Below are positions 31,658-36,972 of a DNA stretch of 64,000 nt, piece after piece; within the stretch, counting starts at the first letter, position 1, and every line of letters begins with the position of its first letter. A program made the translations under genes and the position numbers. Source of the stretch: Bryobacteraceae bacterium (lineage in GTDB: Bacteria > Acidobacteriota > Terriglobia > Bryobacterales > Bryobacteraceae); assembly GCA_025056455.1 (NCBI GenBank), contig JANWVY010000001.1, positions 815,757 through 879,756 of the forward strand, read 5' to 3'. A model generated the notes under the pieces. It saw only the letters and a program-made list of their open reading frames with translations. It ran no database searches and was not told the DNA's origin.

Positions 31658-32920
31658 TTGCTTGCCGTCAACGCGGCCGCCAAGGGAGGGGTTCTGCGTT
31701 TCTTTCTCATCTATTTTCTTGCTGCGTCGATTGTTCTTTCGCAAGAGCAGTCTCCGCCGGCCGCCAGGCCGGGCATTTTTGGAGAGATCGATGAACTGCT
31801 CAGAGAGCTAGAAAAGATCACTGGCCTCAAATCCCTACGCAAAGTGCCCTCGGACACGATTAGCAAGGAGAACCTCAAGAAGTTTTTGGAAGAGCGAATC
31901 CAAGAGGCGGTCAAACCCGAAGAAATCCGGGCCGAGCAAATCGCGCTTCAGATGCTCGGGTTTGTGCCGGCAGAATTCGATTTGAAGAAAATGACCATCG
32001 ACTTGCTCACCGAACAAGCGGCCGCCTTTTACGATTACAAGAAGAAGAGGCTTTTTTTGCTCGACTCCAACGCGTCCAGCTTGCAGCGTCCGATTTTGGT
32101 TCATGAGCTGGCCCATGCGCTGGCCGACCAGCATTTTGATCTGGAGAAATATTTGCTCAAGGGCAAAAGCGATGACGCGGCTCTGGCGCGGATGGCGGTG
32201 ATGGAAGGTCAAGCCACCTGGTTGATGTCGGAGTACGTGCTGTCGCAACTGGGCGCTTCGCTGAAGCGCACTCCGGAGATGGCGGAGTGGATGAACCGCC
32301 TGTCGGGCTCCTCAGGGGGCCTTTATCCGGTGTTTGATTCCGCGCCGCTCTACTTGCGCGAAACGCTGATGTTTCCATACACCAAAGGCGTGCTCTTCCA
32401 GAACGCAGTGATCGCCAAGATGGGAGATGCGGGATTTGCCGAGGTGTTTCGCAATCCTCCGGCAAGCTCGCAACAAATTCTCCACCCGCAAAAATACTTC
32501 GACCGGGAGCGCCCGGTCAGCGTCGAACCACCACAAGTCAAATTGAGAGGCTACACCAGGCTCATCGAAGGCACGTTTGGCGAACTCGACCATGAGATAC
32601 TGTTCCGGCAGTACGGGGACGAGGCTACCCCGCCGCTGGCCGAACGCTGGCGGGGCGGCGTTTACCGCATCTTGGAAAACAAAAAACAGAATCACCGAAT
32701 TTTGTTGTATGCCTCGGAGTGGATCGATACGCGCGCTGCAGCGGCGGCGTTTCTGACCTGGCGCAAAGCGATGCAGAAGAAGTGGCGGCGGTTTGAAGTG
32801 AGCACGGAATCTTCTACGGAGCTCTCCGGGAGGTGCGACTGGGGGATCTTCCGCCTGCAACTTTTCGATCGTCGCGTGACGAGCGTTGAAGGCTTGCCAG
32901 AAAGGCCCCGGCGTAATTGA
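31658..32920 (+). CDS. Secreted HELAH-motif metalloprotease-like protein
   Basis: There are about 420 residues from the TTG at 31658; the frame is open from TTG 31502 with no ATG or GTG before the mature domain. I prefer 31658 because it places a signal peptide (LRFFLIYFLAASIVLS) near the N-terminus. The motif LVHELAHALADQHFD is the zinc-binding HExxH of gluzincin-like peptidases, with EGQATW further on as the possible third ligand region. The surrounding sequence is not a family I can name. It probably cleaves proteins or peptides outside the cytoplasm. The gene ends 52 bp before the MoaD-MoaE fusion. The start is uncertain. Confidence 0.7.
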   Translation: MLAVNAAAKGGVLRFFLIYFLAASIVLSQEQSPPAARPGIFGEIDELLRELEKITGLKSLRKVPSDTISKENLKKFLEERIQEAVKPEEIRAEQIALQMLGFVPAEFDLKKMTIDLLTEQAAAFYDYKKKRLFLLDSNASSLQRPILVHELAHALADQHFDLEKYLLKGKSDDAALARMAVMEGQATWLMSEYVLSQLGASLKRTPEMAEWMNRLSGSSGGLYPVFDSAPLYLRETLMFPYTKGVLFQNAVIAKMGDAGFAEVFRNPPASSQQILHPQKYFDRERPVSVEPPQVKLRGYTRLIEGTFGELDHEILFRQYGDEATPPLAERWRGGVYRILENKKQNHRILLYASEWIDTRAAAAAFLTWRKAMQKKWRRFEVSTESSTELSGRCDWGIFRLQLFDRRVTSVEGLPERPRRN

Positions 32921-32972
32921 TTGTTTCCACGCAACGGCGACGCTGAGCAACACGTCTGATAGTCTAGTAGTC

Positions 32973-33710
32973 GTGCGCGTGCAAGTCCTGTTCTTCGGCA
33001 TGCTGAAGGACATCACCGGTCATTCTCAAGAGCAGTTAGAGCTGGAAGCTGGCAGCCGGCTTCAGACGGTTTTCGACCACTATGCAAGCCGCTTCCCACG
33101 GCTTCAACAGATGGCAGCAAGTATCGTGATGGCGCGCAACCAGCAGTTTGCACCGCTCGACACCTTCCTCGAAGAAGGCGATGAAGTTGCTTTTCTGCCG
33201 CCGGTGAGCGGAGGCTCCGAGCCCGCTTGTGAGTTGGCAAGCCCCTATATTCGGACGATCGAAGATCCAGAAGGCCATTTTTTCGCGCTTACCCGCCAGC
33301 CGGTGGAAGTGGCGGAGATCCGTCGCCGCCTTCTCCAGCCGCATGACGGGGCCGTGGTGACGTTTGAAGGGGTTGTCCGCAACCAGTCGCAGGGGCGCAA
33401 GACCCGGTATCTAGACTACGAGTGCTACGAAGGCATGGCCATTGAAGTGATGGCCCGCCTCGGACGTGAGATTGCCGCTCAACACGCGATTAGCCGCATC
33501 GCCCTCGTGCACCGCTTGGGCCGGATGGAGATCGGAGAAACCAGCGTGGCCGTCATCGTGACGGCGCCCCACCGCAAACCTGCCTTTGAAGCTGCACTGG
33601 AAGGGATCAACCGCCTGAAGCGAACCGTCCCGATTTGGAAGAAGGAGTACTTCGAAGACGGAGCGATTTGGGTGGAAGGAGAATGGGACCAATCCATCAC
33701 AGCCAGCTGA
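32973..33710 (+). CDS. MoaD-MoaE fusion, molybdopterin synthase
   Basis: The protein has 245 residues. GTG 32973 gives RVQVLFFGML, the usual MoaD start; the longer frame to 32886 adds unrelated residues. Residues 1-81 are the ubiquitin-like MoaD, ending in LPPVSGG (G80-G81), the thiocarboxylate tail. From about 95 the MoaE catalytic subunit follows (FEGVVRNQSQGR; VHRLGRMEIGET; RTVPIWKKEYFEDG with the catalytic Lys). Together they convert cyclic pyranopterin monophosphate to molybdopterin for the molybdenum cofactor. In the fused state the Gly tail is not free and must be released, as in the known fused MoaX of Mycobacterium tuberculosis. The 3' end overlaps the VWA gene by 28 bp. No other moa genes are nearby. 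Confidence 0.9.
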   Translation: MRVQVLFFGMLKDITGHSQEQLELEAGSRLQTVFDHYASRFPRLQQMAASIVMARNQQFAPLDTFLEEGDEVAFLPPVSGGSEPACELASPYIRTIEDPEGHFFALTRQPVEVAEIRRRLLQPHDGAVVTFEGVVRNQSQGRKTRYLDYECYEGMAIEVMARLGREIAAQHAISRIALVHRLGRMEIGETSVAVIVTAPHRKPAFEAALEGINRLKRTVPIWKKEYFEDGAIWVEGEWDQSITAS

Positions 33711-34732: not shown

Positions 34733-34757
34733 GGGTTGAGATCCGCTGGCTCAACCC
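34733..34757. terminator. Perfect hairpin between VWA and SIR2-like genes
   Basis: GGGTTGAG-(9-nt loop)-CTCAACCC forms an 8-bp perfect stem in the convergent gap. The SIR2-like stop codon (34751-34753) lies in its right arm. No T-run follows on either strand, so termination would be weak or Rho-assisted. Confidence 0.4.
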
Positions 34758-36775
34758 GCAGCCTGAATTTTCCGTTGCCGGCTCTCCCCTGAGGTTACGG
34801 CAGGCGCCGCCTGGCGGGCGGGCATCTGGGCCAGCCGCTCGACCAAGGATTGAAGCAGCTCGGGTAGGGCTTTTGCCACGGCGTCTTCTGCAACAATAAT
34901 GGCTCGCACGCCAAACTCCTTGAGCAGCAACTGGGCCTCCCGCTTCCAGCTTGCATCTTGGACAGCCGCAAAGGCGTAATGCGTCACTCCAGGCGCGGAG
35001 CGGAAGCCGAGAATGCGCAGGTCTTGGATCAATCCCGATAGCGATGCGCCGACGAAAAATAGGACCCGGGTCCGGCAAATCCGGTCCACAATTTCCGAGG
35101 TGACAGAGATGCGTTCGAGCGTTTCCGCCAGATCAAAGCGGGACAGCAACAGCGGCGTGTTGGTCTGCACATCGCCGTATAACTTCCAGACAAAAAACTG
35201 ATGGCTTTTGATGGCGCTCAACGGATTGTAGGGCATGGGCACGACGCCAGCCTCCCAGCGGGGGCCCATGCGCTCTAGTGTGGTGTCGTAATTGGTCGTG
35301 AAGGCGGCGGAAAAAGGTAACTTTCGGAGCCATTCAAAGGCAGGCGTCATCAAGGTAATTCGCCGGTACATGGTGCGGACGAAGGGTTGCAGCTCGTGAT
35401 TGCAACCATCGGCCAAGCGCTCAGCGATCGCCGCGACGCACTCCTCGCCGCGGCCTTTCTTTGCATTCGCAAGCAGGGTGATCATTCCGGAGGAGTCAAT
35501 CCAGCCCTCCGTTTCGGCTGCTTCAATCAAGTACCGGATGAATGCGCTTCGAGTGGGCAGGCCTGCCTGCGCGCTCAGACCCGAGCCGGCCCACAGCACG
35601 ACCTTGCCCTGGCGGAAAGCCTCCAGCAGGCCTTCGGGAATTTCGAAGCGGTCCGGCAAGTTGGCCTTGCGCCGGCGCTCCTGTTCGAGGATCCGGGTGA
35701 CCTTGCGGCGCATGAAACCGCTAGTTGCCAGAAGAAAGCTAGAAAGAGCGGCAAGGCCTGCCAGAGCAAGCGCAAATTGCCCGGGCTTGGTGAAAGTGGT
35801 GGCCTGGGTGAAGCGCAGCAATCCCGTTCCTTCTGGTCCGCTGTAGGCCACATACTGTTGGTTCGCGACGAGAGCGGTCACACCATTTAAGCCGAACTTG
35901 ACTTCACACCCTTGCTCGGTACAAACCTGGATGCCGGGAAAATCGCCCGCGGCTAATAACGTCTGATCCGGAGCGATCACCGCCGTGCGAACTGCGCCGG
36001 GGGTGTGGATCCTCTTTCCGCGGATGAAAATGCCGGTGGCGGAGAGAGCCGCCATCTGACCGGCAGCTGGTAGGACGAGGCGGAAGGATTCGGCTGGGGG
36101 TTCGGTTTGGTCAATGATGCGGGGCCTCGTCTCAATATTCCGATAAAGGGTCATGTGCCGGCTGGAGGCCACTGCTAGATACTGCCCGCGCCCGACCACC
36201 TGTTCGGCCGCTTCGAAAGTTAGCTCCGGTTCGGACCAGACCCGTCCCTCGCTCACATTCCAAGCTCGCACGCTGCCGTCGCGGCAAAAAATCTGGACGG
36301 TTTCCGGACTAGGAACGTGAAGAAACCGAGCCTCCGTTTCGACGAGGCTACCTTGCTTTTTATAGGACCCGCTGAGGTAGTCCAGTTTGGCGAAGTGGAC
36401 TTGTTTGCCGTCAGCCCAGGCCAGTTCATCGCCCGATTCGCTCACCGCCCAAACCGTACGGTTCTCTCCTCCCTCCTCTGGCGCAAGACGAACCGAAACT
36501 TCTTTCCAGGCTCCGCCCGCAAACACCCTCTGCATCACAAGGCGGTTTTGCTCGAGCCGCGCTCCCGTCAGCTGGCCCTCTCGGCTTAGCCACACTTGCT
36601 CGAACTGCCGGTCCTTCCAGCAAGATGCTTCGGAGCTTGCTATCGAGGGCCGGCTTCCGACCCGGATGGCCCAGGTCGCCGCAAGGAGGGCGATGAAAGC
36701 GAGAACCAAGGCGAGTTGGTTCCGCAGTCCGAGGATCAAAGGTTGTCCGAGCAAGCGCACCACCTTGCTATACAT
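34751..36775 (-). CDS. Membrane protein with cytoplasmic SIR2-like domain and large extracytoplasmic domain
   Basis: The protein has 674 residues. ATG 36775 (GAGGT 8 nt ahead) is preferred over 36811. A short basic leader precedes membrane span 1 (about 20-38). Residues about 40-330 form a beta-rich region with WD/propeller-like phrases (VQIFCRDGSVRAWNVSEGRVW). Span 2 is near 333-354 (FALALAGLAALSSFLLATSGF), followed by MRRK and an Arg-rich stretch, which puts the rest inside. Residues about 392-648 are a SIR2-like domain: WAGSGLSAQAGLP is the NAD-binding loop and FTTNYDTTLE holds the conserved Asn (495). The usual catalytic His in KLHGD is Tyr here (KLYGD, 533). SIR2-like NADases act in several phage-defence systems; this is inference only. 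It stands alone, between a VWA protein and hfq. Confidence 0.8.
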   Translation of the reverse strand: MYSKVVRLLGQPLILGLRNQLALVLAFIALLAATWAIRVGSRPSIASSEASCWKDRQFEQVWLSREGQLTGARLEQNRLVMQRVFAGGAWKEVSVRLAPEEGGENRTVWAVSESGDELAWADGKQVHFAKLDYLSGSYKKQGSLVETEARFLHVPSPETVQIFCRDGSVRAWNVSEGRVWSEPELTFEAAEQVVGRGQYLAVASSRHMTLYRNIETRPRIIDQTEPPAESFRLVLPAAGQMAALSATGIFIRGKRIHTPGAVRTAVIAPDQTLLAAGDFPGIQVCTEQGCEVKFGLNGVTALVANQQYVAYSGPEGTGLLRFTQATTFTKPGQFALALAGLAALSSFLLATSGFMRRKVTRILEQERRRKANLPDRFEIPEGLLEAFRQGKVVLWAGSGLSAQAGLPTRSAFIRYLIEAAETEGWIDSSGMITLLANAKKGRGEECVAAIAERLADGCNHELQPFVRTMYRRITLMTPAFEWLRKLPFSAAFTTNYDTTLERMGPRWEAGVVPMPYNPLSAIKSHQFFVWKLYGDVQTNTPLLLSRFDLAETLERISVTSEIVDRICRTRVLFFVGASLSGLIQDLRILGFRSAPGVTHYAFAAVQDASWKREAQLLLKEFGVRAIIVAEDAVAKALPELLQSLVERLAQMPARQAAPAVTSGESRQRKIQAAG

Positions 36776-36972
36776 TCGTGCACACCTCGTCCCTAGGCAA
36801 CGCATCGACATCCTCGTGTCCTGCCTTTAGCTTCGAGAGCCTGAAAAAACGAAAAAAATCCAATTTTTCAAGGGATTCAGAGAAAGTCCGGATGAGGTTT
36901 TTAGACAATGCCCCTAGTCAGTCGCAAGCGAATCCCCCAAAGCCATCGCTTTGCCCGGCAGATTCCTCGCGC

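Follow-up and report, generated by a model that had tools for sequence, protein, structure and literature searches.

A two-span membrane protein of Bryobacteraceae with a predicted beta-propeller and a SIR2-like domain of a clade that lacks the sirtuin histidine

The window, i.e., the whole stretch of DNA analyzed here, comprises 64,000 nucleotides of a Bryobacteraceae bacterium and belongs to a 4.98-Mb assembly in 29 contigs. The gene under study occupies 34751..36811 on the minus strand, stop included, where a frame unbroken over 686 codons encodes a 686-residue protein with predicted membrane spans and a SIR2-like domain; the same interval read in frame on the plus strand holds many stops. 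Two candidate starts exist, the ATG at 36811 and an in-frame ATG at codon 13 (36773..36775, minus strand). An earlier sequence-only reading had given the gene as 34751..36775; its end coordinate corresponds to the second ATG, while the frame opens earlier, at 36811. The gene is the sole match in the genome to the Pfam family SIR2_2 (PF13289), which covers residues 502-637 with 42.6 bits against a cut-off of 24.5 (E-value, E, of 8e-11). Given the unbroken 686-codon frame, this match, and nine further homologues that share this layout, a truncated one among them, the open frame and the domain layout are not due to chance.

Four parts follow one another from the N-terminus, all on the minus strand: a first membrane span at residues ~25-50 (36662..36739; hydropathy 25-43, model helix 8-52), a putative extracytoplasmic domain at residues 53-340 (35792..36655), a second span at residues ~342-364 (35720..35788; hydropathy 346-364, model helix 342-383), and a SIR2-like domain, probably cytoplasmic, at residues 388-663 (34823..35650). 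In the hydropathy scan and the structure model, the hydrophobic segments 25-43 and 346-364 enclose ~288 residues, in agreement with the two spans around some 290 residues read from the sequence alone; a weak hydropathy peak also falls within the propeller (residues 245-263, 1.63). The propeller-like repeats reported between the spans appear in the predicted structure as a WD40-type beta-propeller with seven blades of four strands each, 28 strands in total. Charge was measured as Lys and Arg minus Asp and Glu over the 20 residues on each side of a span. The values for the window protein are +4 before and +1 after the first transmembrane span (TM1), and +1 before and +6 after the second (TM2), which fits a protein with both ends inside. 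The positive residues after TM2, which had been taken to place the SIR2 domain inside, lead to the same topology in 9 of the 10 family members, the exception being the member at locus L062.

The SIR2 fold is supported by the SIR2_2 match, and the same profile matches 10/10 family members at E 0.01. The classical sirtuin deacetylase family (Pfam SIR2, PF02146) gave no match to the window protein in the Pfam scan at E 1, and PADLOC and NCBIfam gave weak partial matches only, the best being to ThsA (2e-5) and Dsr1 (4e-4 to 7e-4). Each of the motifs on which the sequence-only reading relied was located on the minus strand: the nucleotide-binding loop GSGLSAQAGLP (residues 409-419, 35555..35587), TTNYD (residues 505-509, 35285..35299) and KLYGD (residues 543-547, 35171..35185). 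They are followed by a GASLSG loop (residues 588-593, 35033..35050, minus strand), two residues shorter than in other SIR2_2 proteins. Within KLYGD, Tyr545 stands at the position of the histidine of catalytic SIR2 NADases, i.e., enzymes hydrolyzing nicotinamide adenine dinucleotide (NAD+); in the alignment to KomC it faces H146, a residue for which there is a deposited H146N mutant.

This exchange was followed through an alignment of 37 SIR2 domains, obtained from 43 matching frames less 7 duplicates, plus P0001. Fourteen rows belong to one clade (10 membrane proteins of the window type and four ATPase proteins), and the 23 outside rows were chosen for similarity to the membrane SIR2 family and are not a survey of SIR2_2. 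The membrane protein L013 is truncated, yet included in every tally. The histidine of the HG motif is found in 23/23 outside rows and 0/14 clade rows: the membrane proteins have eight Tyr, one Asn (L013) and one Phe (L066), and all four ATPase proteins have Tyr. The His-to-Tyr change first read from a single sequence is therefore part of a clade-wide loss, with Tyr in 12/14. The loop after GxS is two residues shorter in 14/14 clade members, and among the 23 others only L078 is gapped there, by one column. G409, G411, N507, D509, G546 and G588 are present in 37/37 domains, and the features of SIR2-type NADases, namely the GxG loop and the catalytic Asn of TTNxD, are retained in 14/14 clade members. 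The Asp of SLxD, present in 20/23 outside rows, gives way at the aligned position to nine Gly, three Arg and two Glu in the clade (n = 14). A second lost catalytic residue at this position was considered and dropped, as an acid stands at or next to it in 12/14 and the assignment hinges on gap placement; equating the position with Avs5 E202 or FAM118B D255 rests on spacing only.

In 27 of 276 columns, that of Tyr545 included, one residue is shared by 12 or more of the 14 clade members, and W622 is present in 13/14 of the clade against 1/23 relatives, seven of which are gapped there. Conservation of this kind despite low overall identity would suit a clade in which Tyr545 is functional and NAD+ or a different nucleotide undergoes some other reaction (e.g., ADP-ribose transfer). 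However, L066, a full-length frame, has Phe, the truncated L013 has Asn, and no substrate is indicated, and we consider this explanation improbable.

A family profile built from the first three members was scanned over 257 genomes of the order, which yielded 10 places spanning propeller and SIR2 domain in eight genomes, one of them (L013) truncated. The genomes with full-length relatives and the window genome all belong to one family. In a 396-genome sample of the phylum, full-length matches were found in genomes G000 and G035 only, along with three further SIR2-only matches at E 1e-15. Scanning a genome collection with two peptide patterns returned 13 loci, of which six are family members already recovered above and were counted once, and the remaining seven belong to other phyla and match the SIR2 portion. 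A propeller-only profile applied to the 257 genomes recovered the same 10 places and one 68-residue stretch, with no propeller joined to a different output domain, and the propeller was rejected as a sensor module common to other outputs.

Identity between the window protein and each of the other nine members is 22-28%. Mean identity is 0.347 in the SIR2 part versus 0.253 in the propeller, and the invariant columns number 19/276 and 5/288, respectively. The early end of L013, the loss of several motif residues in L066 and the patchy distribution (8/257 genomes) could be taken as signs of a defence gene in decay that no longer has a function; yet nine long open frames persist and the pocket residues are invariant at ~25% identity, making decay highly improbable.

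The tree, which included the His/Tyr column and contains several long outside branches, joins the ten membrane proteins with support of 100/98, the four ATPase proteins with 100/98, and all 14 with 95/90. Given that the 14 proteins group together, the loss of the histidine is explained by one change on one ancestral branch. The four sister proteins, L014:3576-7574 (minus), L067:8401-11724 (plus), L068:5613-9215 (minus) and L069:123-3110 (plus), join a Tyr-SIR2 domain to an AAA_21/PtuA-like ATPase. They resemble the membrane family in forming its sister SIR2 clade, in having Tyr (4/4) and the same loop deletion, and in carrying WD40 repeats in three of the four, apparently inserted in the ATPase; they differ in that no membrane spans were found in them and in having an ABC-type ATPase instead. 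L014 has a SIR2-like stretch that scores under the Pfam cut-off. The joined architecture looks defence-like. In addition, L068 has an N-terminal TIR domain (E 1.4e-15), and because a TIR domain beside an active Tyr-SIR2 would be a redundant second NADase, this one case of four hints that Tyr-SIR2 is not the effector.

Bacterial SIR2-like domains are often taken for defence effectors that destroy NAD+, and the best structural matches of the window SIR2 domain are the antiphage NADases ThsA, DSR2 and KomC. ThsA, of the Thoeris system, is a soluble SIR2-SLOG NADase encoded alongside ThsB. It retains the histidine and has its SLOG domain after SIR2, whereas the window protein has Tyr and places two spans and a propeller ahead of SIR2; no SLOG domain was matched in it by Pfam at E 1, and the SIR2 domain, which extends to residue 663 of 686, leaves no space for one. 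DSR1 and DSR2 are large proteins, and the window protein reaches 18.2 and 11.3 bits with the NCBIfam Dsr1 and Dsr2 models, against cut-offs of 1400. KomC, a SIR2-domain NADase, is akin to the window protein (phmmer E 6e-4; profile E 1e-13 to 9e-13), but has 264 residues, was solved with KomB, and has His146 opposite Tyr545. The human SIR2 NADase FAM118B has His206 and forms filaments (PMC12700824), in contrast to the Tyr of the window protein. Avs5 (PaAvs5-1, SIR2-STAND) includes a STAND ATPase and has Asn where the window protein has Tyr. The SIR2_2 domain and the WD40-type propeller were already known. The order of span, propeller, span and SIR2, and a clade with Tyr replacing the histidine, are new as far as we have seen; no description of either was found in the literature searched, a weak negative given that most subscription journals were not covered.

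We tentatively read the window protein as a ligand-binding sensor or scaffold, a pseudo-NADase that would bind NAD+ or a derivative without the usual hydrolysis. Such binding is suggested by the NAD+-holding motifs being kept while the histidine is lost and the nearby loop shortened. It is the best single reading given two precedents: full NADase activity of DSR2 needs both H171 and N133 (PMC10981675), and SIRT1 H363Y, the same kind of exchange as Tyr545, is catalytically inactive by deacetylation (PMC2605257). The protein would be a two-span inner-membrane protein with its propeller on the outer face of the membrane, as both chain ends of the propeller run into membrane helices. The propeller probably contacts a ligand or partner protein outside, and the cytoplasmic SIR2-like domain may bind NAD+ or a derivative such as ADP-ribose. 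The state of this ligand could be sent across the membrane, or a signal from the propeller received, by shape change or assembly. The layout, the fold, the lost histidine, the shorter loop, the retained pocket motifs and the single origin of the clade come from sequence or prediction; the ligand, the absence of NADase activity and the direction of signalling are what we infer here. A more specific version, rather doubtful at present, would make the protein a receptor spanning the membrane: its sirtuin domain, no longer catalytic, would sense NAD+ in the cytoplasm (or a messenger of the ADP-ribose type) and signal this to the extracytoplasmic propeller, or the reverse. The protein would then be the visible member of a wider Tyr-SIR2 sensor clade also regulating PtuA-like ATPases. 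If the sensor reading is true, sensing is a further use to which the SIR2 fold has been put, and SIR2_2 genes should not all be labelled defence NADases.

Several observations count against a pseudo-NADase sensor. PaAvs5-1 hydrolyzes NAD+ with Asn for His, still lowering NAD+ in infected cells, and its immunity needs N110, D112 and E202 (PMC12931631); a missing histidine is thus no proof of inactivity. Asn507 is invariant; its counterparts in DSR2 and Avs5 are important for catalysis, and a domain serving binding alone would have no strict need of it. An acid lies at the SLxD position or one residue earlier in 12/14 clade members (one earlier in 10/14), the window protein and L013 having none at either place. 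Concerning topology, the TM1 charges agree in 5/10 members, are contrary in four and tie in one, so the cytoplasmic side of the SIR2 domain would rest mainly on TM2. Lastly, the predicted structures have low predicted template-modelling scores (pTM 0.47 and 0.49), and the relative placing of the domains is therefore not predicted.

Owing to the activity of PaAvs5-1, the main rival is that the protein is an active NADase whose variant motif reads YG instead of HG, and that an envelope signal on the propeller triggers NAD+ hydrolysis for phage defence or self-limitation. It draws on the invariant Asn507 and Asp509, on the acid found in most of the clade at the SLxD position or beside it, on Avs5 working with NG (PMC12931631), and on the closest structures being antiphage NADases. 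We nevertheless regard it as somewhat unlikely, given the histidine lost in 14/14, the mostly ordinary named neighbours described below, and the lack of a full-length copy in plasmids or viral contigs. The sequence-only reading had proposed a single-gene sensor-effector acting on NAD+ in phage defence. Its layout, SIR2 fold, propeller and His-to-Tyr change are supported. The proposed action on NAD+ in defence faces the same three points, and a single-gene sensor-effector is somewhat less probable than a sensor or scaffold that binds a ligand. Were the domain active, it would add to the Asn of Avs5 a further substitute for the sirtuin histidine, this one coupled to a transmembrane switch.

Around the 10 loci, 53 neighbour proteins were picked and 10 of them run against Pfam; flanks are short on one side for at least L013, L060 and L063. 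Eight of the ten are ordinary (a MoaD-MoaE fusion, VWA, Hfq-like, inositol monophosphatase, FliN-like, NAD synthase, 2-hydroxyacid dehydrogenase and a sigma factor); the other two are a Cas10-like protein and a protein without a match. Among the matches listed (25 of 54 families), the clear antiphage ones are to Csm3 and Cas10 models near L061, i.e., at 1/10 loci, and neither a defence-island pattern nor a partner common to all 10 loci was seen within these partly short flanks. The defence genes to be looked for around homologues did not emerge as a pattern, and a defence island, while conceivable, is unsupported in the flanks covered. Other PADLOC matches listed are mad2, mad6, PD-T4-6, C3a189 (kinase) and MkoA, and most of these, MkoA apart, are probably the window Ser/Thr kinase and sigma factors. 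A mobile origin was rejected: the plasmid collection held no full-length copy (one record, SIR2 part only), viral contigs scanned with two peptide patterns held none (two loci, SIR2 part only), and there was no PHROG match.

Individual loci show further features. At L061:3460-6256 (minus), what may be a reduced type III CRISPR locus encodes Csm3, a Cas10-palm protein and a small protein rich in Gly and Arg; the Csm3 and Cas10 genes lie 2.4-5.2 kb downstream of the membrane SIR2 gene. L012 and L060 share a common site adjoining genes that read, from their sequence, as HIT, HU and ribosomal S1. At L064:5420-7069 (minus), the membrane SIR2 gene is divergent to an NAD synthase gene, an arrangement found at 1/10 loci. 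In the window, 32886-33710 (plus) combines ThiS/MoaD-like and MoaE domains within a single open frame. At L013:4200-4376 the SIR2 gene stops early near the contig end, and the stretch after the early stop presumably resembles the start of a transposase.
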